Below, in pieces: positions 4,214-20,803 of a stretch of 29,378 nucleotides of DNA. The notes under the pieces are model-generated. The model saw nothing but the letters and a program-made list of their open reading frames with translations, was not told the origin of the DNA and ran no database searches. The stretch covers positions 1 to 29,378 of the forward strand of contig NZ_RCYB01000023.1 of assembly GCF_004168205.1 (NCBI RefSeq). Reading direction: 5' to 3'. Numbering within the stretch: position 1 is the stretch's first letter; each line of letters begins with the position of its first letter. The stretch is from Catenibacterium sp. co_0103 (GTDB lineage: Bacteria; Bacillota_I; Bacilli_A; Erysipelotrichales; Coprobacillaceae). The position numbers and the translations under genes were made by a program.

Positions 4214-4417
4214 ATGAACGCAAACGTAGGTATGTACCGAAGGCTATTTCGGGAATTTACGACTATGGAGTGTACTAGGACCTGTGAGTAGATATGATTT
4301 CGGTCAATCCAAAGCATACACGATGATATAGTAAGTAATGTTCGTGAGAACTTACATTATCTCGATGTGAGTATATTTAATCACATTTCGAGTGGCAGCC
4401 GAAGTTGAGCAAAAAAA
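4150..4417 (+). ncRNA. Probable TnpB guide RNA (omega RNA/reRNA) region
   Basis: The tnpB 3' end and the 204 bases after it carry no ORF but several hairpins. ACCTACG (4195-4201) pairs with CGTAGGT downstream, spanning the stop codon. CCGAA/TTCGG lies at about 4238-4253, and GTTC/GAAC nested in GTAAG/CTTAC at about 4331-4355. A TGTGA/TCACA stem with flanking TCGA arms lies at about 4362-4391. TnpB guide RNAs are known to span the tnpB 3' end and end at the element boundary. The guide would then be read from the flanking AlbA_2 C-terminal sequence just after about 4417. Exact ends are not visible. Confidence 0.55.
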
Positions 4418-10923: not shown

Positions 10924-12147
10924 TTATTTAAGAACCTTACGTTTTGTAGACGAAGGAATATTTAATTGTTGTCTATATTTGACAATGACTCGACGTGAAC
11001 AATGTAGTTCTAGCTCTTCTAGTTTCTTTAGAATTTGGTTATCCGAAAGTGGATGTTCTTTATCTTCACTATCAACTAATTCAACAATAGCCTTTTTAAT
11101 AGAATCGCTACTATCTCCTGAAGCAGTTTGAGAAACAAGAAGTTGTTTAAGAGGATAAACCTCACCATTAAAGCTGTAGTACTTATTATTTAATGTACGT
11201 GAAATAGTAGATTCATGGAATCCTGTTTCACTTGCAAGTTGTGATAAAGTACATGGATATAATTCATCATCGTATAAGAAATAACCACTCTGGATATCAA
11301 CTAAAGCATTTGCGACAAATAATACTGTTTGATTTCTCTTTGTGAGATTTTCAATTAAGAAATGTGCATCATTAAAATAAGATTTCATATTTTCATCATT
11401 CTTTACCTTCTCATAAAGAAGATCATTTACGATGAGTTCAGGTTGATTGATAGGAGTAATCATAATATTAGAATCTTCTACCTCTATTAAAATATCTGGG
11501 GAGATATAATCATCCTGGGATGAACTATACATATTACATGGGAATGGATTACAAGAACGTATTTCATAAAATAAATGGTCTATCTCTTCTTTTTTTAATC
11601 CTGTTTTCTGTTTAATAAGTGAATAGTTCTGAGTTAAGATAACATCCTGATAATCTCTAAATAGTGTATAGCTTTTTGTTTTATTATTATTTTTTAATTG
11701 AATGATAATTGAATCAATAGCATCAGTAGCTCCAACACCATTTGGTTCAAAAGAACGTAATATATCTAAATGAGCATCAAGCATTTCTCTGTCTATATCT
11801 AAATCAGTGAGATATTGATTAATAGGGTAGGATAAGAACCCACTATCATCTAATGATTCAATCAAATAATCCATCAAATCTTCATTATATGGACGAGTAC
11901 ATGCACTTAACTGTAAATAGAGATCATCTTTTAAAGAACGTTTATTAGAAATACTTTCAATAAATTGCTGAGTATCATAGTTTTTAGGTGATTTTAGTTC
12001 TAAAAAAGGATTTGTTTCTAATACTTGTTGAACAACTTTATTGATATCATCAATGTTGTCAGTAAGGAAATCTAACGATTTTAAAAGTTTTTGATTTAAT
12101 TTTAATGTTTGTTTTAATGTTTGAATATATTGCATTTTTTGTTTCAT
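10924..12147 (-). CDS. rpoN: RNA polymerase sigma-54 factor
   Basis: This is a 407-aa sigma-54 (SigL/RpoN). The N-terminus is the glutamine- and leucine-rich region I (QKMQYIQTLKQTLKLNQKLL) that contacts activators. The core-binding region follows, with a helix-turn-helix near LASETGFHESTISRTL. The C-terminus has the RpoN box, here SRRVIVKYR, that reads the -24 element. ATG 12147 is preferred over GTG/ATG at 12156-12151 because GAGGGG is 8 nt from it but only 2 nt from the earlier ATG. The gene faces away from its apparent activator, and its promoter is a perfect sigma-54 site (12187-12172). It is shorter than proteobacterial RpoN (about 480 aa), as usual in Firmicutes. Confidence 0.96.
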   Translation of the reverse strand: MKQKMQYIQTLKQTLKLNQKLLKSLDFLTDNIDDINKVVQQVLETNPFLELKSPKNYDTQQFIESISNKRSLKDDLYLQLSACTRPYNEDLMDYLIESLDDSGFLSYPINQYLTDLDIDREMLDAHLDILRSFEPNGVGATDAIDSIIIQLKNNNKTKSYTLFRDYQDVILTQNYSLIKQKTGLKKEEIDHLFYEIRSCNPFPCNMYSSSQDDYISPDILIEVEDSNIMITPINQPELIVNDLLYEKVKNDENMKSYFNDAHFLIENLTKRNQTVLFVANALVDIQSGYFLYDDELYPCTLSQLASETGFHESTISRTLNNKYYSFNGEVYPLKQLLVSQTASGDSSDSIKKAIVELVDSEDKEHPLSDNQILKKLEELELHCSRRVIVKYRQQLNIPSSTKRKVLK

Positions 12148-12171
12148 ATTCATCACCCCTCACTATTATAT

Positions 12172-12187
12172 AGCAAAATCCGTGCCA
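12172..12187 (-). promoter_or_regulatory. Sigma-54 (-24/-12) promoter of rpoN
   Basis: The minus strand reads TGGCACGGATTTTGCT, matching TGGCACG-N4-TTGCW with no mismatch and the invariant 12-bp GG-to-GC spacing. The predicted start is near 12161, about 14 nt before the rpoN ATG. The ribosome site lies at the very 5' end of the transcript. It implies that sigma-54 transcribes its own gene. Confidence 0.75.
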
Positions 12188-12281
12188 ATTAATGTATGGA
12201 TATTTAATAGAAAAGTATAACGAATAACGATTGTTGCACACAAGTTTTATTTGTTTTATCATGAACGATGAGGTGATTTCA

Positions 12282-14960
12282 TTGAAAGAAAAAATAATGT
12301 TGTTGATTAATGGAAGAATGGATCAAAATTCATATGAAGAATGTCAATCCATCCAATTATCAAAAGAATTAAAACTAAGTAGAAATCAAGTGACTAGATT
12401 ATTAAATGAACTATTTAATGACAAGAAGCTTATTAAAATCAAGACAAGCCCTGTTTTATATCTTTCAAGAGGTTCTCTTGAAAGTAAGTATAAGAAGAAG
12501 CTCTCATCAGATGAATACAAATCATTAGATGAATTGGAAGCTGAATTAAACAATCAGACAGAATTAAAGAACTTCGAAAAGCTTATTGGGTCTAATGAAA
12601 GCATGTATCAGATTGTAGAGAAGATTAAGGCAACAGTATCTTACCCTCCAGTAGGATTACCTATGTTGTTTTATGGACCAACTGGTACAGGTAAATCATT
12701 TATGGCTAAACTTACGTATGAATATTGTGTAGACACAGGCTTAATTGATGCATCTAAGAATTTTGTACAGGTGAACTGTTCAGAGTATGCTAATAACCCA
12801 GAACTACTCACAGCGAATCTGTTTGGCTATAAAAAAGGTGCTTTTACAGGTGCAGAAAGTGATAACTTAGGTTTATTACATTTTGCGGATGGTGGAGTAT
12901 TATTCTTAGACGAAGTGCATTGTTTAAATGCTGAATGTCAGGAAAAATTATTCCTTTATATGGACCAGGGAATCTATCACTTAGTAGGTGATAATAATAA
13001 GTGGTATAAATCTAAATGTAGAATTATATTTGCGACAACAGAAGTTCCACAAAAAGCATTATTAAAAACATTCCTCAGACGTATTCCAGTTATTCTTACA
13101 ATTCCATCTCTTGCACAAAGAGGAGAAAATGAAAAGCTAGAACTCATGTATAGCTTTTTGAAGAACGAAGAGAAGCGTGTTGGTAAAACAATTCTTATTT
13201 CATCTAACGTTTATGAGTTGTTACTGAATCACACATTTGTAGGTAATATTGGTGAACTGACTAATACTATTCAGGCAAGCTGTGTGAGTGCATTATATAA
13301 AAGTAATTCAGATACGTTAGAAATACATGCTTATGATTTACCTGACAGTATTAGAAATAGTATAGATGTTTCCTCTATGATTATGAAGAAGCATAAACTT
13401 GTGTCTCTTAACACACTTCTTCCTGTATCAGATCAGGGGATCATTAAAGATTTTTATCAATCATTAATTAATCTTAAAAGAGATCAGTCATTTGCAGTAA
13501 ATGCACAGAATACTGTAGATAGATATTTTGAGAAGCTTATATTTAATGATAATCGTGCAGATTCAATTGATTATCTTACAAACTATCTAGAAAAGATATT
13601 TAATAATATCACTGAACATTATGGCTTTAGGACTTCACATAATGAGTTGATTGCACTTGCGACATATGTCTCAGAATTCTCTAAGAATACATATCTCACA
13701 AATAACTGGATCAATGAGAATTATGATGAAGTAAAAAACTTAAAGAAATATCTAAAACTAGAATTTCATCGTGAATATGAAATAGGACAGGAAGTTTCTC
13801 ATTACTTAAAGAATAATATGAATCAGGATATTGATGAGTTTGTAGAATGTATTATCTGTATTTGTATGATTAAGTATTTTGCACATTCTGGTGAAGATCT
13901 CACAATTGCGGTTATTATTGCGCATGGTTATTCAACTGCAAGTTCTATTGCAGAAGCAGCCAATAGAATGTTGAATAGTTATATATTTGATGCGATTGAT
14001 ATGCCGTTAGATGTGGATGTACAAATTATTACAAGAAAGATCAATGATTACATTGCACATGTTGGAAATATCTCAAAACTTTATTTATTAGTTGATATGG
14101 GTTCTCTTGAAGAAATATATCAGGGATTAGATACAAGTAATGCAGATATTGCCTTAGTAAACAATATTAATACTAAATGTGCGTTAGAAATAGGACAGGG
14201 AATTAAACTCAATAAAACAGTGACTGAAGTAATTGATTCTATTCTTAAGGAAAACATCTATAAAACGCATATAGAACTTAAGAAAAAGAAAGACCCTATT
14301 GTAATCTGTTCTTGTGCATCAGGAGTTGGTACAGCGAATAAGATCAAAGAAATCTTATTCAATTCTTTACCTGAAGATTCTAATTTAAAGATTATTACTT
14401 ATGATTATCCTGCTTTAATACGTAAACAGGTCTGTGATCAGTTAATGAATGATTATGAGGTTGTATGTGTCATTGGAACACTTGATCCAAATATTGAATC
14501 TATGAAATATATAGGTATACAGGAATTGATTATTAATGAGGGTCAGAATGCGATAGAAGTATATTTTGGAAAGTATATGACTCAAGCTCAGATGGAGGTA
14601 TTCGAAAAGAATATCTTACGTAATTTCACATTATCCAATGTTATGAATAACTTAACTATATTAAATCCAGATAAACTACTAGAACATGTAGCGAAAGCAA
14701 TTGATCATCTACAGAATATCTTACATAAGAGATTTAAGAATAGAACATGCTTTGGATTATATGTTCATATCTGTTGTCTTGTAGAAAGATTAGTTACAAG
14801 ACAAGCTATTTCAAACTTTACTGATCAAGACTTTAAAGAAAAGCATCAAGAGTTTATAGATCAAGTAAATATCTCAATGAAAGAAGTTAAAACATACTAC
14901 AATGTTGAGATTCCAGATGAAGAAATAGAATATATATACAACTATATTATTAATGATTAG
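12282..14960 (+). CDS. LevR-type sigma-54-dependent PTS transcriptional activator
   Basis: The 892-aa protein has the LevR/ManR layout: an N-terminal winged helix (1-60), then an AAA+ sigma-54 interaction domain with Walker A GPTGTGKS (about 132-139), the sigma-54 contact loop GAFTGA (186-191) and Walker B VLFLDE (about 206-211). PRD1 follows (about 400-500, His453 a candidate), then a mannose-type EIIA-like domain with His548 in IIAHGYS. An EIIB-like domain has CSCASGVGTA (about 676-685), and PRD2 closes the protein with His829. Such proteins are controlled by PTS phosphorylation on these domains. TTG 12282 is chosen because GAGGTG is 6 nt upstream; the ATGs at 12261 and 12231 lack a ribosome site. 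It precedes the promoter array and PTS genes it should activate. Confidence 0.93.
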   Translation: MKEKIMLLINGRMDQNSYEECQSIQLSKELKLSRNQVTRLLNELFNDKKLIKIKTSPVLYLSRGSLESKYKKKLSSDEYKSLDELEAELNNQTELKNFEKLIGSNESMYQIVEKIKATVSYPPVGLPMLFYGPTGTGKSFMAKLTYEYCVDTGLIDASKNFVQVNCSEYANNPELLTANLFGYKKGAFTGAESDNLGLLHFADGGVLFLDEVHCLNAECQEKLFLYMDQGIYHLVGDNNKWYKSKCRIIFATTEVPQKALLKTFLRRIPVILTIPSLAQRGENEKLELMYSFLKNEEKRVGKTILISSNVYELLLNHTFVGNIGELTNTIQASCVSALYKSNSDTLEIHAYDLPDSIRNSIDVSSMIMKKHKLVSLNTLLPVSDQGIIKDFYQSLINLKRDQSFAVNAQNTVDRYFEKLIFNDNRADSIDYLTNYLEKIFNNITEHYGFRTSHNELIALATYVSEFSKNTYLTNNWINENYDEVKNLKKYLKLEFHREYEIGQEVSHYLKNNMNQDIDEFVECIICICMIKYFAHSGEDLTIAVIIAHGYSTASSIAEAANRMLNSYIFDAIDMPLDVDVQIITRKINDYIAHVGNISKLYLLVDMGSLEEIYQGLDTSNADIALVNNINTKCALEIGQGIKLNKTVTEVIDSILKENIYKTHIELKKKKDPIVICSCASGVGTANKIKEILFNSLPEDSNLKIITYDYPALIRKQVCDQLMNDYEVVCVIGTLDPNIESMKYIGIQELIINEGQNAIEVYFGKYMTQAQMEVFEKNILRNFTLSNVMNNLTILNPDKLLEHVAKAIDHLQNILHKRFKNRTCFGLYVHICCLVERLVTRQAISNFTDQDFKEKHQEFIDQVNISMKEVKTYYNVEIPDEEIEYIYNYIIND

Positions 14961-14985
14961 TGTGCTATTAATTGGCACACTTTTT
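14959..14985 (+). terminator. Terminator after the LevR-like gene, overlapping a sigma-54 motif
   Basis: AGTGTGC (14959-14965) pairs with GCACACT (14975-14981) and is followed by TTTT. The stem starts inside the stop codon. Its right arm is part of a sigma-54 promoter match at 14973-14988. Confidence 0.7.
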
Positions 14986-14988
14986 GCT
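14973..14988 (+). promoter_or_regulatory. Outermost sigma-54 promoter motif, inside the terminator
   Basis: TGGCACACTTTTTGCT has the -24 TGGCAC and -12 TTGCT with the correct 12-bp GG-GC spacing, though the flank differs from the array units. It could be a founding promoter or a chance product of the terminator's GGCACAC-TTTTT sequence. Confidence 0.4.
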
Positions 14989-15014
14989 TGTTTAAAAGTG
15001 GAAGTTAGTTGTAC

Positions 15015-15368
15015 AGATTGAGCGTAAGAATCTATAAACTGGCATGAAGCTTGCTTGAGTATAAGTGGAAGCTGGTTATGCAGATCAAGCGTAAAGATCT
15101 GTAAACTGGCACGAAGCTTGCTTGAGTATAAGTGGAAGTTAGTTGTACAGATTGAGCGTAAGAATCTATAAACTGGCATGAAGCTTGCTTGAGTATAAGT
15201 GGAAGCTGGTTATGCAGATCAAGCGTAAAGATCTGTAAACTGGCACGAAGCTTGCTTGAGTATAAGTGGAAGTTAGTTGTACAGATTGAGCGTAAGAATC
15301 TATAAACTGGCACGAAGCTTGCTTGAGTATAAGTGGAAGCTGGTTATGCAGATCAAGCGTAAAGATCT
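15015..15368 (+). promoter_or_regulatory. Six inverted-repeat candidate activator sites in the array
   Basis: Units 1, 3 and 5 carry AGATT-N9-AATCT at 15015-15033, 15149-15167 and 15283-15301. Units 2, 4 and 6 carry AGATC-N9-GATCT (extendable to CAGATC/GATCTG) at 15082-15100, 15216-15234 and 15350-15368. The spacer core AGCGTAA is constant. The T-A to C-G swap keeps the symmetry. Each site is centred about 42 bp upstream of its own unit's start, but about 110 bp upstream of the next unit's start, a usual distance for a sigma-54 activator site. Unit 7 has only a degenerate copy. Binding by the LevR-like protein is inference. Confidence 0.6.
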
Positions 15369-15390
15369 GTAAACTGGCACGAAGCTTGCT
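15040..15390 (+). promoter_or_regulatory. Six upstream sigma-54 promoters, units 1-6
   Basis: Matches of TGGCAYGAAGCTTGCT lie at 15040-15055, 15107-15122, 15174-15189, 15241-15256, 15308-15323 and 15375-15390. Units 1 and 3 have TGGCATG; the others have the consensus TGGCACG. All keep the 12-bp GG-GC spacing. Predicted starts are near 15066, 15133, 15200, 15267, 15334 and 15401. Confidence 0.8.
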
Positions 15391-15442
15391 TAAGCATAAG
15401 TGGAAGCTAGTTCTACAGACTGAACGTAATTGATCTACAAAC

Positions 15443-15458
15443 TGGCACGAAGCTTGCA
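15443..15458 (+). promoter_or_regulatory. Proximal sigma-54 promoter of the PTS operon
   Basis: TGGCACGAAGCTTGCA is a full match to the -24/-12 consensus, and the only copy ending in A. The predicted start is near 15469, just upstream of the GAAAGGAG ribosome site of the EIIA gene, giving a leader of about 24 nt. Confidence 0.88.
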
Positions 15459-15492
15459 TGAACTAAAACGAAAAGAAAGGAGTGCAGAGAAT

Positions 15493-15906
15493 ATGGCAAA
15501 AATCATACTTGCATCACACGGAGGACTATCTAAAGGGATGAAAGATTCAGTTTCTATGATTGTTGGAGATTTAGCTAAGGATATAGAAACATATAGCTTG
15601 CTTCCTGGACAAAATCCTGAAGACTTTTATCAAGAAGTTTTGAAAGAAGTAAAAGAGAGTGATGAACAAATCTTAATCTTGTGTGATATCAAAGGTGGAA
15701 GTGTTCACACAGCTTTATCTAAACTTGCAGTATTAGATAATGTAATGGTCTTCTCAGGAATGAACATGGGATTAGTATTAGATGCAGTAATGAAAGGCTT
15801 GAACGGAAAACTTGAATTAGCAGAAGCAAACGATTTAATCGAAGCAGCTAAAGATGGAATGACTGTTATGAATGGAATAACAAGCGAAGATGATGAAGAT
15901 TTCTAA
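15493..15906 (+). CDS. PTS mannose-family EIIA component
   Basis: The 137-aa cytoplasmic protein carries phosphate from HPr to EIIB. The N-terminus MAKIILASHGGLSKGMKDS is the EIIA-Man fold with phospho-acceptor His9. ATG 15493 is chosen because GAAAGGAG precedes it; the frame is open from 15430, but that start lies within promoter unit 7. Length is normal for a stand-alone IIA domain, so IIA and IIB are separate here rather than fused as in E. coli ManX. The gene is first in the sigma-54 operon. Confidence 0.94.
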   Translation: MAKIILASHGGLSKGMKDSVSMIVGDLAKDIETYSLLPGQNPEDFYQEVLKEVKESDEQILILCDIKGGSVHTALSKLAVLDNVMVFSGMNMGLVLDAVMKGLNGKLELAEANDLIEAAKDGMTVMNGITSEDDEDF

Positions 15907-15921
15907 TAGGAGGAGAAGAAA

Positions 15922-16389
15922 ATGATTAAATTATTAAGAGTGGATCACAGATTGTTACATGGTCAAGTTGCTTTTTCTTGGAAAAATGCAGTTGAAGCAG
16001 ATTGTATCTTAATTGCATGCGATGCAGTTATGAAAGATGATTTAAGAAAAACTTCAATCAAGATGGCAAAACCAAGTGGTGTTAAATTAGTTATCAAAAG
16101 TATGGATGATGCAGTAAAAGCAATCAACAGTGGTGTTACAGACAAATATAAATTATTAACTGTAGTTGAATCTATTAAGGATGCTGAAAGATTGTGTAAA
16201 GAATGCAACATCAAAAAGTTAAATCTTGGTGGTACTAAGGCAACTGCTGAAACTCGTAATATTTCAAAAGCAATGAATATTACACCAGCAGAAGAAACAA
16301 TTTTAAAAGGATTATGTGAATCAGGCGTGGATGTAACAATTCAGATGGTTCCAGAAGATAATCCAGTAAATGTAGAAAAAGTTTTATAG
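15922..16389 (+). CDS. PTS mannose/sorbose-family EIIB component
   Basis: This 155-aa protein accepts phosphate from EIIA and passes it to the sugar during import. The N-terminus LLRVDHRLLHGQVAFSW is the EIIB-Man signature, with phospho-His13 in RLLHGQV. It has a TAGGAGGAG ribosome site and lies 15 nt after the EIIA stop, with EIIC following after 10 nt. Length is normal. The position between EIIA and EIIC/EIID marks a single complete transporter. Confidence 0.95.
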   Translation: MIKLLRVDHRLLHGQVAFSWKNAVEADCILIACDAVMKDDLRKTSIKMAKPSGVKLVIKSMDDAVKAINSGVTDKYKLLTVVESIKDAERLCKECNIKKLNLGGTKATAETRNISKAMNITPAEETILKGLCESGVDVTIQMVPEDNPVNVEKVL

Positions 16390-16399
16390 GAGGAGAAAT

Positions 16400-17176
16400 A
16401 TGTTACTACAAGCAATTTTACTTGGCTTGGTAGCAATGCTTGGAAATGCTGAGTATTTGTTCGGTACAAGTTTGTTGTCAAGACCATTGGTTATGGGTAC
16501 TTTAACAGGTATTGTACTTGGTGATGTGCAAACAGGTGTTACTTTAGGTGCAACATTAGAATTAGCATTTATGGGAGCTTTCTCAATCGGTGCTAGTATT
16601 CCACCTGAAATGATTTCAGGAACTGTATTAGGAACAGCTTTCACAATTACAACAGGAGCTGGGCCAGAAACTGCATTGACTGTAGGTTTACCAGTTGCTT
16701 CATTAGTTTTAATTGCAAAGAACGTTGGAATGGTATTCATCTTACCTCCATTTGTTCATAAAGCAGATAAATATGCGGCTGAAGGAAATATGGCTGGAGT
16801 TGCTAGAATGCACTTATTAGGTGGATTCTTCGGTGTTAACTTAATTATCGGTGTGATTGTAGGATGTGGTTACTATGCTGGTGGACCAGCTGTACAGGCT
16901 TTATTAAATGTCATTCCTAAATGGATTTCAAATGGTTTACAGATCACAATGGGATTATTACCTGCAATTGGGTTCGGTTTATTATTAATGATGATTATGG
17001 ACAAAGAAGTTGCATGTTTCTTCTTCTTAGGATTCGCACTAAGCGTATACTTAAAGATTCCAGTAACAGCAATCGCAATTTTTGGAGTTATCATTGCTAT
17101 CGTATTAACTCAGTTACGTAGTAATTCAACTCAAACAGCAACAGAAGGAGGAGTAGATGAAGATGACGACTTCTAA
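16400..17176 (+). CDS. PTS mannose-family EIIC membrane component
   Basis: The 258-aa polytopic membrane protein forms the sugar channel together with EIID. It has the EIIC-Man glycine-rich N-terminus (LLSRPLVMGTLTGIVLGDVQTG, residues about 25-46), followed by a long series of hydrophobic segments and an acidic DEDDDF tail. AGGAGG precedes ATG 16400. The 3' end overlaps the EIID start by 20 nt, and the AGGAGG of EIID lies inside this gene. Confidence 0.95.
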   Translation: MLLQAILLGLVAMLGNAEYLFGTSLLSRPLVMGTLTGIVLGDVQTGVTLGATLELAFMGAFSIGASIPPEMISGTVLGTAFTITTGAGPETALTVGLPVASLVLIAKNVGMVFILPPFVHKADKYAAEGNMAGVARMHLLGGFFGVNLIIGVIVGCGYYAGGPAVQALLNVIPKWISNGLQITMGLLPAIGFGLLLMMIMDKEVACFFFLGFALSVYLKIPVTAIAIFGVIIAIVLTQLRSNSTQTATEGGVDEDDDF

Positions 17177-17981
17177 TAAATTAACTAAAAAAGAGTTAAA
17201 TCAAGTATTCTGGCGTTCATTCGGTTTGGAATGGTCTTGGAACTATGAAAGACAGATGAATATGTCATACTGCTATAGTATGTTACCAGTTATCAAAAAG
17301 TTATATCCAAATAAAGAAGATCAAGTTGCAGCTATGAAACGTCACTTGGAATTCTTCAACACAACTCCACAATTGGCAACATTAATCTTAGGTATTAGTG
17401 CTGCTATGGAAGAAAGTAACGCAAATGATCCTGAATTTGATACAGAAAGTATCAACAATGTAAAGGTTTCATTAATGGGACCTTTAGCAGGTATTGGTGA
17501 TTCATTCATCTGGGGAACATTACGTATTATCGCTACTGGTGTTGGTTTATCTCTAGCAAATCAAGGAAATATCTTAGGACCTATCTTATTCTTATTAATC
17601 TTCAACCTTCCAGCTCAGGGATTACGTTATTATTTAATGAATGCTGGTTATAAATTAGGTAGTGGATTCTTGGCTAAGATCCAGCAGAATGGATTAATGT
17701 CAAAACTTACTTATGCAGCAAGTGTTTTAGGATTGATGGTTGTTGGTGGTATGACTGCTGAAAACGTATCAATCAGTTTCCCATTGAAGTTTGGTTCTGG
17801 TAATGAAGCAACTACATTGAATTCTGTATTCAATAATATCATGCCTGGTTTAATGCCATTATTATTCACATTACTAGTTTACTACTTATTGAAAAAGAAA
17901 AATGTTAAGACAACTACATTATTGTTAATCTGCGTTGTGATCGGATTAGTCGGAGCATTCTTTGGTATTTTAGGTTGTTAA
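17157..17981 (+). CDS. PTS mannose-family EIID membrane component
   Basis: The 274-aa protein completes the mannose-family permease. It shows the EIID N-terminus (LNQVFWRSFGLEWSWNYERQM, about residues 13-33), the GPLAGIGDSFIWGTLR motif (about 106-121) and C-terminal membrane segments. ATG 17157 lies 5 nt after AGGAGG; ATG 17163 is possible but 11 nt away. It overlaps EIIC by 20 nt. After its stop, an AT-rich direct repeat (17981-18015) separates it from the first deglycase. Confidence 0.95.
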   Translation: MKMTTSNKLTKKELNQVFWRSFGLEWSWNYERQMNMSYCYSMLPVIKKLYPNKEDQVAAMKRHLEFFNTTPQLATLILGISAAMEESNANDPEFDTESINNVKVSLMGPLAGIGDSFIWGTLRIIATGVGLSLANQGNILGPILFLLIFNLPAQGLRYYLMNAGYKLGSGFLAKIQQNGLMSKLTYAASVLGLMVVGGMTAENVSISFPLKFGSGNEATTLNSVFNNIMPGLMPLLFTLLVYYLLKKKNVKTTTLLLICVVIGLVGAFFGILGC

Positions 17982-18015
17982 TAAATTTTAAAAAAATGAT
18001 AAATTTTAAAAAAAA
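17981..18015 (+). repeat. Short AT-rich direct repeat between EIID and the first deglycase
   Basis: ATAAATTTTAAAAAAA occurs at 17981-17996 and again at 17999-18014, a period of 18 bases. It is followed by ACGGAGG, the ribosome site of the next gene. It could act as an A-rich translation enhancer or affect mRNA processing. No function is shown. Confidence 0.8.
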
Positions 18016-18029
18016 CGGAGGAAAAGAAA

Positions 18030-19034
18030 ATGGAAATGATTAAATTTAATGAACAGGAAAAAATCGATAGCGTAAATGGCGCATTAGCTTTACGCCCTCA
18101 GATCAACGAAATCGTTGATGAAATCTGCGAACATGGATATTCAAACATCTGCTGGTTAGGTGTTGGTGGTACTTGGGCAAGTGCTATGCAGGCTACAGTA
18201 CACATGAAAGAAATGAGTGCTATTGAAACTTGGGCAGAAAATGCTGCTGAATACTTAACTACAGGAAACAAACGTATTACTAAAGATACAGTTGTTATTA
18301 TCTCATCTGTATCTGGAAACACTAAAGAAGTCGTTGATGCTATCAAGAAAATCAAAGCTGAAGTTGGTGCTACAGTTATCTCATTTGTTGATGCTAAAGA
18401 AGCTATCTTATTAGATTTAGGAGACTACAAGATCTCTTACCCAATGAACGAACAGTTAAAGTTCTTCATGGTTGCTGACCGTTTCATGTTCAACAATGGT
18501 GAATTAGAAGACTACGATGATATGTATGCTGAATTTGACAAATACTTAGCAGAAGATTTAGTAGAAGTTGAAAAGAAAGCTGAACCATTCGCTATTGAAT
18601 TCGCTAAAAAACACTGGAATGATGAAATGCACTACTTTGTAGGTGCTGGAAACCAGTGGGGTGCTACTTACTCATATGCAATGTGCTATTGGGAAGAACA
18701 GTTATGGTTAAAAACTAAATCAATCACATCAAATGAATTCTTCCATGGTATGTTTGAAATCGTAACTAAAGAAACTCCAGTTACTATCTATATTGGTGAA
18801 GATGCTCAGCGTCCATTATCTGAACGTGTAGCTAACTTTATTCCAAGAATTTGTGCAAACTACACAATCATTGACACTAAAGATTACGAATTAAAGGGAA
18901 TTAGTGAAAAATATCGTAAACACTTATCTCACCATGTAATGCATGCTGTAAACAACAGAATTGATGTTCATATGGAAATCGAAACTCGTCACCCTATGGA
19001 AATCCGTCGTTACTACAGAAGATTAGAATACTAA
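18030..19034 (+). CDS. SIS-domain sugar-amine 6-phosphate deglycase (FrlB/GfrF-like)
   Basis: This is a 334-aa protein with tandem sugar-isomerase (SIS) domains. The first has the phosphosugar-binding GVGGTWASA (about 43-51) and SSVSGNTKE (about 91-99). The second contains NEFFHGMFEIV, matching the FrlB EFRHGPLEIV active-site segment. The C-terminus (HPMEIRRYYRRLEY) resembles that of E. coli FrlB (recalled DERRYYGGLVEY). FrlB and GfrF cleave fructoselysine 6-phosphate to glucose 6-phosphate and lysine. Together with the mannose-type PTS this suggests an Amadori-product pathway; other N-linked sugar substrates remain possible. A strong CGGAGG site and compact codon use suggest high expression. 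Confidence 0.85.
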   Translation: MEMIKFNEQEKIDSVNGALALRPQINEIVDEICEHGYSNICWLGVGGTWASAMQATVHMKEMSAIETWAENAAEYLTTGNKRITKDTVVIISSVSGNTKEVVDAIKKIKAEVGATVISFVDAKEAILLDLGDYKISYPMNEQLKFFMVADRFMFNNGELEDYDDMYAEFDKYLAEDLVEVEKKAEPFAIEFAKKHWNDEMHYFVGAGNQWGATYSYAMCYWEEQLWLKTKSITSNEFFHGMFEIVTKETPVTIYIGEDAQRPLSERVANFIPRICANYTIIDTKDYELKGISEKYRKHLSHHVMHAVNNRIDVHMEIETRHPMEIRRYYRRLEY

Positions 19035-19039
19035 AATAT

Positions 19040-19064
19040 AAAGGGTGGATTTATTCCACCTTTT
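19040..19064 (+). terminator. Intercistronic hairpin between the two deglycase genes
   Basis: A 9-10-bp stem with one G-T pair (AAGGGTGGA, 19041-19049, with 19055-19063) has a 5-nt loop. It ends in TTTT that is itself part of the stem. It could be a weak attenuator or an mRNA stabiliser that protects the upstream gfrF-like message. Confidence 0.5.
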
Positions 19065-19086
19065 ATACCTTAATTGGGGGTATATT

Positions 19087-20166
19087 ATGAATAAATTAAC
19101 AATGCTTGATTATGTTAAAGAAACACCAGGCGTATTAAGAACAAATATTGAACAGTATACTACACTAGTTGATCCATTGATGAAGGAAGTGCAACAAAAA
19201 GAAATCAAACGTATTTTACTTGTTGCTTCTGGATCAAGTCATAATGCTTGTTATTGTGCTAGAAGTTTTGTGGAAAAAGTAAGTGGTTTAGAAGTTAGAA
19301 TCATTACTCCATATACATTTACGTACTATGAAAATGATATTAAAGAGAACGACTTAGTTTTAGTGGTTACACAGAGTGGTTTAAGTACAAATGCAATCGA
19401 AGCATTAAAAATCATTAAGAAAAAAGAATGTAAAGCTATTTGTTTAACAGGAAATAAAAACAGCGATGTAAAAGATGTTGCGGATGTTGTAATTGAATAC
19501 GGTGTGGGCGAAGAATTAGTTGGCTATGTCACAAAAGGTGTTTCTTCACTTGCGCTATTCTTAGATTTATTTGCAATTGCATATTCTGGAAAGACTGAAT
19601 ATTTGGATGAATTAAAGAAAGCAGCTGATTTAAATGAAGAAATGATTGATCAGGCTACAAACTTTATTCAGCGACATTATAAGAATTTCACATCTATGTC
19701 CTGGGTTTACAGTTGTGGAGCGGGTGCCAATTATGGAACAGCACTTGAAAGTGCATTAAAAATGGGTGAAACCATTCATATTCCAAGTTGCTGCTATGAA
19801 ATTGAAGAGTATATTCATGGACCAAACCTTCAATTAACGCCACAATACAATGTGATTTTCTTTGATGGAAACGATAGTGCAAGTCGACGCGTAGAACAAG
19901 TATATAAGGCTACGCGAAAAGTAACTAATCGAGCTTATTTAATTTCAAACAATCCTCAATTATCAAGTGATGATCATGTTTTAAGTTTGAGTGATACTGT
20001 ATCAAGTGAATTATGTCCACTTGTATATCTACCATTTGTACAATTATTAAGCTTTATTGTTTCAAATGACTTACACTCTATTTATCAACATCCATTATTA
20101 AAAGAATTTAAGGCTATTGCAGCTGCTAAAACGGAGAATTTTGTGAATTATGATGGAGACGATTAA
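19087..20166 (+). CDS. SIS-domain deglycase, GfrE/GlmS-isomerase-like
   Basis: The 359-aa protein has two SIS domains in the GlmS isomerase style. ASGSSHNACYCAR and TQSGLSTNA are the phosphosugar-binding loops, and EEYIHGPNLQL contains the catalytic-type Glu and His. It differs clearly from the first deglycase, so this is not a recent duplication. In Salmonella the gfr operon likewise carries two deglycases, GfrE for glucoselysine 6-phosphate and GfrF for fructoselysine 6-phosphate; the pairing here suggests the same. ATG 19087 is chosen because GGGGG ends 6 nt upstream; the frame is open from 19045 without a ribosome site. Its end overlaps the HAD gene. Confidence 0.83.
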   Translation: MNKLTMLDYVKETPGVLRTNIEQYTTLVDPLMKEVQQKEIKRILLVASGSSHNACYCARSFVEKVSGLEVRIITPYTFTYYENDIKENDLVLVVTQSGLSTNAIEALKIIKKKECKAICLTGNKNSDVKDVADVVIEYGVGEELVGYVTKGVSSLALFLDLFAIAYSGKTEYLDELKKAADLNEEMIDQATNFIQRHYKNFTSMSWVYSCGAGANYGTALESALKMGETIHIPSCCYEIEEYIHGPNLQLTPQYNVIFFDGNDSASRRVEQVYKATRKVTNRAYLISNNPQLSSDDHVLSLSDTVSSELCPLVYLPFVQLLSFIVSNDLHSIYQHPLLKEFKAIAAAKTENFVNYDGDD

Positions 20167-20803
20167 AACTGTTATTTTTGATATGGATGGTGTGATCTTT
20201 GATAGTGAAACCATGTATATAAATGATTTGATAAGATTTTTTAAACAGCATGATATAGAAATACAAGTAAGTGATTGTATTCCTCTTATTGGTATTGATA
20301 GTAAATTATATTATGAGCAAGCATATAGAATGTGGAATGAAAAAACTGATTTCATGACATTTAAAAATATGCTTCAAGAATATTTTCGTTCATTTGATTG
20401 TGATTATAAAGCGGTAGTTAGACCTCAGATCTATCCTGTTTTAGAACACTTAAGTAAACATTATAAAATAGCGTTAGCGTCCTCTTCTAGTTTATATAGT
20501 ATTAATAATGCGTTGGATCAGGCTGGTTTAAAAAAGTATTTTTCACTTATAGTAAGTGGTGAACAATTCAAAGAAAGTAAACCAAATCCAGAAATATATT
20601 TATATACAATCAAAGAATTGAATGTGAATAAAGATGAAGCTATTATTATTGAGGATTCATCTAAAGGAATATTAGCTGCAAATAGAGCTGGTATTAAGGT
20701 ATTGGCTTTAAAAGATGATAAGTTTGGCTTAGATCAGAGTCAGGCAGATATAATTATTGATGAATTAAATGATATTATAAAGTTGATTGAGAAAGGGGCA
20801 TAA
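20150..20803 (+). CDS. HAD-superfamily phosphatase/phosphoglucomutase-like hydrolase
   Basis: This 217-aa HAD protein has motif I FDMDGVIFDSE (Asp nucleophile and Asp+2), motif II in LASSSS, the Lys of KESKPNPEIY and the acidic motif VIIEDSSKG. Its helical cap follows motif I, as in the beta-phosphoglucomutase/phosphatase subgroup. It overlaps the second deglycase by 17 nt, so it belongs to the PTS operon. It may dephosphorylate an intermediate or remove a dead-end sugar phosphate; the sequence does not tell which. The start at 20150 or 20153 (adjacent ATGs) is not resolved. Confidence 0.88.
   Translation: MMETIKTVIFDMDGVIFDSETMYINDLIRFFKQHDIEIQVSDCIPLIGIDSKLYYEQAYRMWNEKTDFMTFKNMLQEYFRSFDCDYKAVVRPQIYPVLEHLSKHYKIALASSSSLYSINNALDQAGLKKYFSLIVSGEQFKESKPNPEIYLYTIKELNVNKDEAIIIEDSSKGILAANRAGIKVLALKDDKFGLDQSQADIIIDELNDIIKLIEKGA

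Follow-up and report, generated by a model that had tools for sequence, protein, structure and literature searches.

Eight serial sigma-54-type promoter sites between a LevR-type activator gene and a PTS operon of Catenibacterium, and the variation of their number among relatives

The common picture of sigma-54 control is of a single promoter governed by activators bound at a distance, and a control region in which -24/-12 elements follow one another in series raises the question of whether such a row consists of working promoters or of by-products of repeat growth, and of what the number of its members might do. The window analysed here, a stretch of 29,378 nucleotides from Catenibacterium sp. 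co_0103, contains such a region in front of a PTS operon. Upstream of it lie the divergent genes for sigma-54 (rpoN; 10924-12156, minus strand; Pfam Sigma54_AID, CBD and DBD) and for a sigma-54 activator of 909 amino acids (12231-14960, plus strand; Pfam Sigma54_activat, EIIA-man and PRD). The predicted activator combines an AAA+ domain carrying GAFTGA, whose columns are invariant across a five-sequence alignment, with EIIA-man and PRD domains, and is classed on this domain content as LevR-type. Its Pfam profile holds one PRD, a match to EIIB-Gat is absent from the results, and residues 1-117, the region where an N-terminal DNA-binding domain was sought, have no Pfam match. Assignment to the DagR equivalog (NF047795) was rejected, the activator reaching 466.3 bits against a curated cut-off of 1400. 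The operon begins with the EIIA gene (15493-15906, plus strand; Pfam EIIA-man) and continues on the same strand with EIIB, EIIC and EIID of a mannose-family PTS (15922-17981; Pfam) and with two deglycase-like SIS-domain proteins (18030-20166; Pfam), which score 57.6 and 44.7 bits with NCBIfam fructoselysine 6-phosphate deglycase, below its cut-off of 430. This order fits the content of gfr (fructoselysine/glucoselysine) operons, namely EIIA-EIIB-EIIC-EIID and two SIS-domain deglycases. Note also that the window contains, at 4262-4334 (plus strand), a RAGATH-18 RNA (Rfam RF03064, 65.3 bits).

A scan for TGGCAC-N5-TTGC with zero or one mismatch finds eight -24/-12 sites on the plus strand, between 14973 and 15457. 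Numbered from the activator gene, they are site 0 (14973-14987, TGGCACACTTTTTGC, no mismatch), site 1 (15040-15054), site 2 (15107-15121), site 3 (15174-15188), site 4 (15241-15255), site 5 (15308-15322), site 6 (15375-15389) and site 7 (15443-15457), the last being closest to the EIIA gene and intact in its -24/-12 element. The corresponding starts are predicted near 14999, 15066, 15133, 15200, 15267, 15334, 15401 and 15469, that of site 0 being placed by its distance from the -24/-12 element. GG at -25/-24 and GC at -13/-12 are present at fixed spacing in all eight. The earlier note on this DNA had described seven tandem sites in contiguous 67-bp units, each carrying a consensus element. The array is borne out by the scan and by Tandem Repeats Finder, but its members are eight, the site at 14973, one period upstream, having been overlooked; six spacings are 67 bp, but the last is 68 bp; and every site stays within one mismatch of the consensus, although two of them, sites 1 and 3, read TGGCAT instead of TGGCAC. 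With up to two mismatches allowed, the whole window holds 26 sites, a count that not one of 100 shuffles attained (13.5 +/- 3.5).

Tandem Repeats Finder reports the repeat at 14984-15461 (plus strand) with a period of 67, 7.1 copies and 83% matches, and gives a higher score to a period of 134, at 95% matches; the units alternate between two types that are 9-13 differences apart. Over 67 bp there is no difference among units 2, 4 and 6, and a single base separates unit 3 from unit 5, which indicates recent duplication of two-unit blocks. Such identity also means that short reads could miscount the units, and the array or its copy number might then be an artefact of assembly. We consider this extremely improbable: in G001, the nearest relative compared, an array of the same kind with seven sites and more diverged units lies on one 2.65-Mb contig, and Faecalibacillus has six sites, so that the existence of the array is unlikely to be artefactual, although its precise copy number in the window may be. 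Site 0 overlaps a predicted intrinsic terminator 3' of the activator gene (14959-14981, plus strand; consensus scan); by eye, a sigma-54 site over a terminator-like hairpin after the activator gene is also seen at the loci of G053 and G076. An open frame of 101 amino acids antisense to the array start (14874-15179, minus strand) is without Pfam match and is probably not a gene, and viral contigs searched with one 26-base stretch of the array unit gave no matches.

That the sites are sigma-54 promoters reading into the EIIA gene, as had been proposed, finds support in the neighbouring genes, which encode sigma-54 and the putative LevR-type activator, in the corresponding loci of other lineages, where sites occur in tandem twos or threes, and in the presence of likely start boxes. 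Counting from the first T of TGGCA, a box of the form RDTG, a pattern picked after inspection of the sequences, begins at an offset of 23-25 bases in 19 of the 21 relatives with a single site (24 in 13, 25 in five and 23 in one); the search covered 22-26 bases from this T, a range in which random AT-rich sequence passes in 11.5% of cases. In the window, AGTG stands at offset 24 in seven of the eight sites, the exception being site 7, at 15443, which reads AACGA instead.

The explanation that we favour, with moderate confidence, is that the one PTS operon is served by eight serial sigma-54 promoters, at least seven of them complete (that is, having both a -24/-12 element and a start-site box), which fire in parallel and whose number sets or buffers its output. 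The LevR-type activator encoded just upstream would switch all array promoters on together, sigma-54 would be supplied by the divergent neighbouring rpoN, and the sites would be filled by separate polymerases and opened by the same activator. Tandem sites are spaced 56-75 bp apart, roughly the stretch of DNA that a single sigma-54 polymerase occupies, so neighbouring sites could be filled simultaneously. Against this explanation, stable complexes at downstream sites could block polymerases coming from upstream sites. The further sites would have arisen by duplication in the leader of an ancestral site 0, and their number would change in steps of 67 or 134 bp through unequal recombination. With members that are parallel and individually dispensable, the array would be redundant and its strength would follow the number of intact units; it is in this way that unit number would set or buffer the strength of the operon.

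The distribution among relatives bears directly on this explanation. An order-wide search for the activator covered 315 genomes, 68 of which had a match at E 1e-60 or better; the best match from each of 30 of those 68 genomes was examined, and 29 of these loci were readable, L099 being left out of the counts since an activator frame of 300 codons or more is absent from its piece. By strict scan, at least two tandem sites occur at seven of the 29 (G001, G024, G027, G009, G232, G076 and G199; two or more strict sites per locus are the definition of this set and not a result), one site at 21 and none at one. Uniqueness of the arrangement, for which the earlier note knew no described counterpart, is not supported. 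With degenerate sites included, the window has eight, G001 seven, Faecalibacillus faecis six and Sharpea azabuensis two; the locus of G001, where one of the seven is broken, is about 97% identical in DNA to that of the window. G009, with an activator 77% identical, has a pair of sites at a distance of 68 bp within diverged sequence, and G232 and G076 have three and two tandem sites, respectively, at the same locus as the window's array. Spacings of 56, 57, 65, 68 and 75 bp in the other lineages speak against a strict 67-bp periodicity as the working principle.

Fourteen named loci, several of them from the same genomes as the 29, were scanned as well: those of Faecalibacillus and Sharpea are tandem, 11 of the other 12 have a single site in the 460 bp that follow the activator, and Breznakia has none within that distance. 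A survey of the tandem pattern as such finds it in eight of the 315 genomes of the order, with zero in every row of the reversed-pattern control; in a phylum sample of 392 genomes, all in one class and many very small, it occurs in four, all from the window's family. The tandem pattern of G181, for which no activator locus was seen, was set aside as probably due to chance.

At single-site loci the site lies 27-51 bp past the activator stop in 17 of 21 cases and 120-433 bp past it in the rest; window site 0 lies at 12 bp. Judging from these positions, site 0 is the probable ancestral promoter, and duplications between it and the gene can be taken to have given the array. An alternative is a neutral repeat expansion, with one working promoter (site 0 or the gene-proximal one) and the rest as slippage by-products. 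With a matrix trained on the first site of every locus, the window's included, site 0 scores 28.0 and the array members 14.7-17.8; the identity of units 2, 4 and 6 is compatible with ongoing slippage; and the -24/-12 core is only moderately better conserved than other parts of the unit: among 16 distinct units, 4 of 10 core columns vary against 24 of 57 elsewhere, with 7 minor cells against 83. We nevertheless regard a neutral expansion as unlikely. The gene-proximal site of G001 no longer has a -24 element (TAGCTC), and in G009 the terminator site is without -12, so that neither of these positions can be the universal working promoter; the loss in G001 argues, at least in that genome, against the possibility that the gene-proximal site works alone. 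Furthermore, start boxes at the usual offset are retained in all window sites but one, and G232 and G076 keep intact tandem sites in spite of spacers that are unlike the window's.

Decay of single members is seen elsewhere too: G024 has an altered -12 in units 1 and 2, and in Faecalibacillus faecis two of the six sites read TTTC at -12. Since window site 7 is without a start box and its counterpart in G001 without -24, the gene-proximal promoter seems to be decaying in the window/G001 lineage while the upstream ones remain. The spacers of G232 and G076 cannot be aligned to the 67-bp unit of the window (z 1.1-1.7), suggesting that the shared feature is promoter multiplicity and not the repeat; the spacer of G009 gives no clear alignment to the unit either (z 1.4). 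Spacers of G232 and G076 resemble one another (z 4.2), and that of G199 is similar to the window unit (z 4.2) and to the Sharpea spacer (z 5.4), so that not every one of these lineages need be an independent case. At least three changes of the tandem state fall on the activator tree; support there is by SH-aLRT only, several forks are open, and gains versus losses are not settled by it.

The units also carry a dyad (CAGATC-N9-GATCTG and variants), and it may be asked whether the useful part of the array is this dyad, as a site for binding of the activator, with the cores travelling along. Counted by hand, the dyad centre is some 41 bp upstream of the start predicted for its own unit and some 108 bp upstream of the following one, the latter distance being near the -125 reported for LevR, which binds some 125 bp ahead of the point where lev transcription starts according to the available part of PMC10864463. 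The inner dyad is largely kept in 19 units, the outermost pair excepted, and UAS lie mostly 100-250 bp upstream and are often multiple, as stated in the accessible portion of PMC6615313. An enhancer array is quite improbable all the same: in both the window and G001 the last unit has only a degenerate dyad, inspection by eye revealed no such dyad in the spacers of G009, G232, G076 and G199, and 67 bp correspond to 6.38 turns at 10.5 bp a turn, so that the unit copies would not lie on one face. As a separate observation, the spacer between the first two sites of L087 (G232), otherwise non-aligning, has CAAGCGTAAA, the centre of the window dyad.

The repeat might also act after transcription, as a leader RNA hairpin influencing mRNA stability or translation. 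Each upstream transcript would then start about six nucleotides before a hairpin, the 3' arm of which would reach into the next -24 element. The outer stem pairs in all 19 units if G-U is allowed, and one inner pair occurs as U-A in eight, U-G in six and C-G in five of them. However, 92.0% of cells are paired against 91.9% in shuffles, 295 of 500 shuffles being as high, and a folding z below -2 is reached by two of 25 upstream-start leaders and, in a separate folding test, by one of five stretches. The hairpin was rejected as a conserved function, as the shuffle control gave no covariation support and the folding was unexceptional, and this explanation is very improbable.

Parallel sigma-54 promoters, as we prefer to read the array, may be compared with known systems. 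The lev operon of Bacillus subtilis and the cel operon of Bacillus thuringiensis are alike in having an AAA+/EIIA-man/PRD activator (LevR or CelR) beside a PTS operon with a -24/-12 promoter, and ManR of Listeria is a like case. Differently from the eight serial sites of the window, lev and cel each have a single -24/-12 promoter, served by one UAS or by several, as far as described in the available parts of PMC10864463 and PMC6615313; the latter part mentions, for clostridial sigma-54 target operons, often several UAS and speaks of one sigma-54 promoter per operon. Similarly to the window, GfrR-gfrABCDEF of Clostridium and Clostridioides (same portion of PMC6615313) has a sigma-54 activator, and GfrR-gfr of Salmonella is, from partial descriptions, the same kind of system. 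A single promoter is usual for gfr operons, whereas the window has eight sites, and its SIS proteins fall far below the deglycase cut-off. Promoter VNTRs of M. tuberculosis and of fungal cyp51A, to the extent covered by partial sources, resemble the array in that the repeat number of a control region differs between relatives; they differ in that a complete sigma-54 promoter lies within the repeated unit of the window. Two starts that depend on RpoN are reported for Geobacter pilA. We class the array with the LevR/GfrR kind of control region, multiple serial sigma-54 promoters being the new aspect. In the literature searched, mostly outside subscription papers, no tandem, multiple or repeated sigma-54 promoter array was found: the accessible portions of PMC7045595, PMC6510779, PMC3333781, PMC7962754, PMC12316311 and PMC3162934 hold no sigma-54 promoter array, and the word 'tandem' is absent from that of PMC6615313.

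The gene for sigma-54 is itself preceded by a -24/-12 site (12173-12187, minus strand; TGGCACGGATTTTGC, no mismatch), with a start box at offset 23, making autoregulation of rpoN by sigma-54 probable. By the strict test, a site on the rpoN side is present in the window, at all seven tandem loci and at the single-site locus of G053, and in six of these nine sites (the window's included) a start box stands at offset 24 or one base to either side; none of the other 21 loci passes, though rpoN is near the activator in many. A looser matrix test gives matches, not counted as rpoN-side sites, in the non-tandem G287 (11.5), G152 (17.0, at -362) and G219 (6.4). Tandem loci are accordingly seven of the eight with a strict rpoN-side site and zero of the 21 without, with a hypergeometric probability of 5e-6, or 2.5e-4 over the 18 loci of the activator clade. 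Supported branches of the tree yield three pairs, two in the same direction and one with no difference (p 0.5); as the independent cases on the tree are too few, we treat the co-occurrence of tandem operon promoters with a sigma-54 site at rpoN as a lead. According to the available part of PMC12316311, rpoN autoregulation is enriched in several classes, including Erysipelotrichia; the window is like these cases in that a sigma-54 site precedes rpoN and differs in that this site stands alongside tandem operon promoters. By eye, no motif common to the array and the rpoN side was found. In Sharpea azabuensis (L056 8975-9935), about 960 bp are inserted, relative to the window, between rpoN and its sigma-54 site.

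Compared with Faecalibacillus and Sharpea, protein identity is 90-97% for rpoN, 95-96% for the activator and 90-96% for the two genes after the operon, and only 38-61% from EIIA to SIS1. Window 15505-20252 has 91% DNA identity with Holdemanella, whose activator is just 46% identical, and the edge of this alignment falls 12 bp inside the EIIA frame. It thus seems, from these identities, that the PTS/SIS cassette was replaced and the rpoN-activator-array block kept.

A broader reading, which we put forward tentatively as one possibility, would join these observations: promoter number would be a selected, adjustable quantity at a self-contained, autocatalytic sigma-54 locus retained across lineages. 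With rpoN under a sigma-54 promoter of its own, switching by the activator would raise sigma-54, which in turn would load the bank of parallel promoters, giving an autocatalytic switch whose gain is set by promoter copy number. Several lineages of the order would have evolved, or kept, this arrangement, and the promoter bank would have outlasted the replacement of the PTS cassette that it drives. Promoter number itself may thus be a quantity that evolution adjusts here, and it may be linked, in a testable form, with rpoN autoregulation. At this one locus related bacteria have one, two, three or six to eight sites, a natural series that would allow a direct test of tandem sigma-54 promoters; it could tell apart adding, blocking and competing as modes of their interaction, and it bears on whether bacteria tune operons via promoter copy number.

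We also would like to mention some observations from relatives with more than one such gene pair. G001 and G053 have two rpoN per genome, each near its own LevR-type activator, and these may possibly be dedicated sigma-54/activator pairs. In L081 (142-4012, 9942-10030, 11027), from G001, the second rpoN adjoins a second LevR-type activator; two further sigma-54 sites, in tandem at a distance of 74 bp, precede the EIIA gene of a mannose-family PTS operon there, and pfkB has a site of its own.
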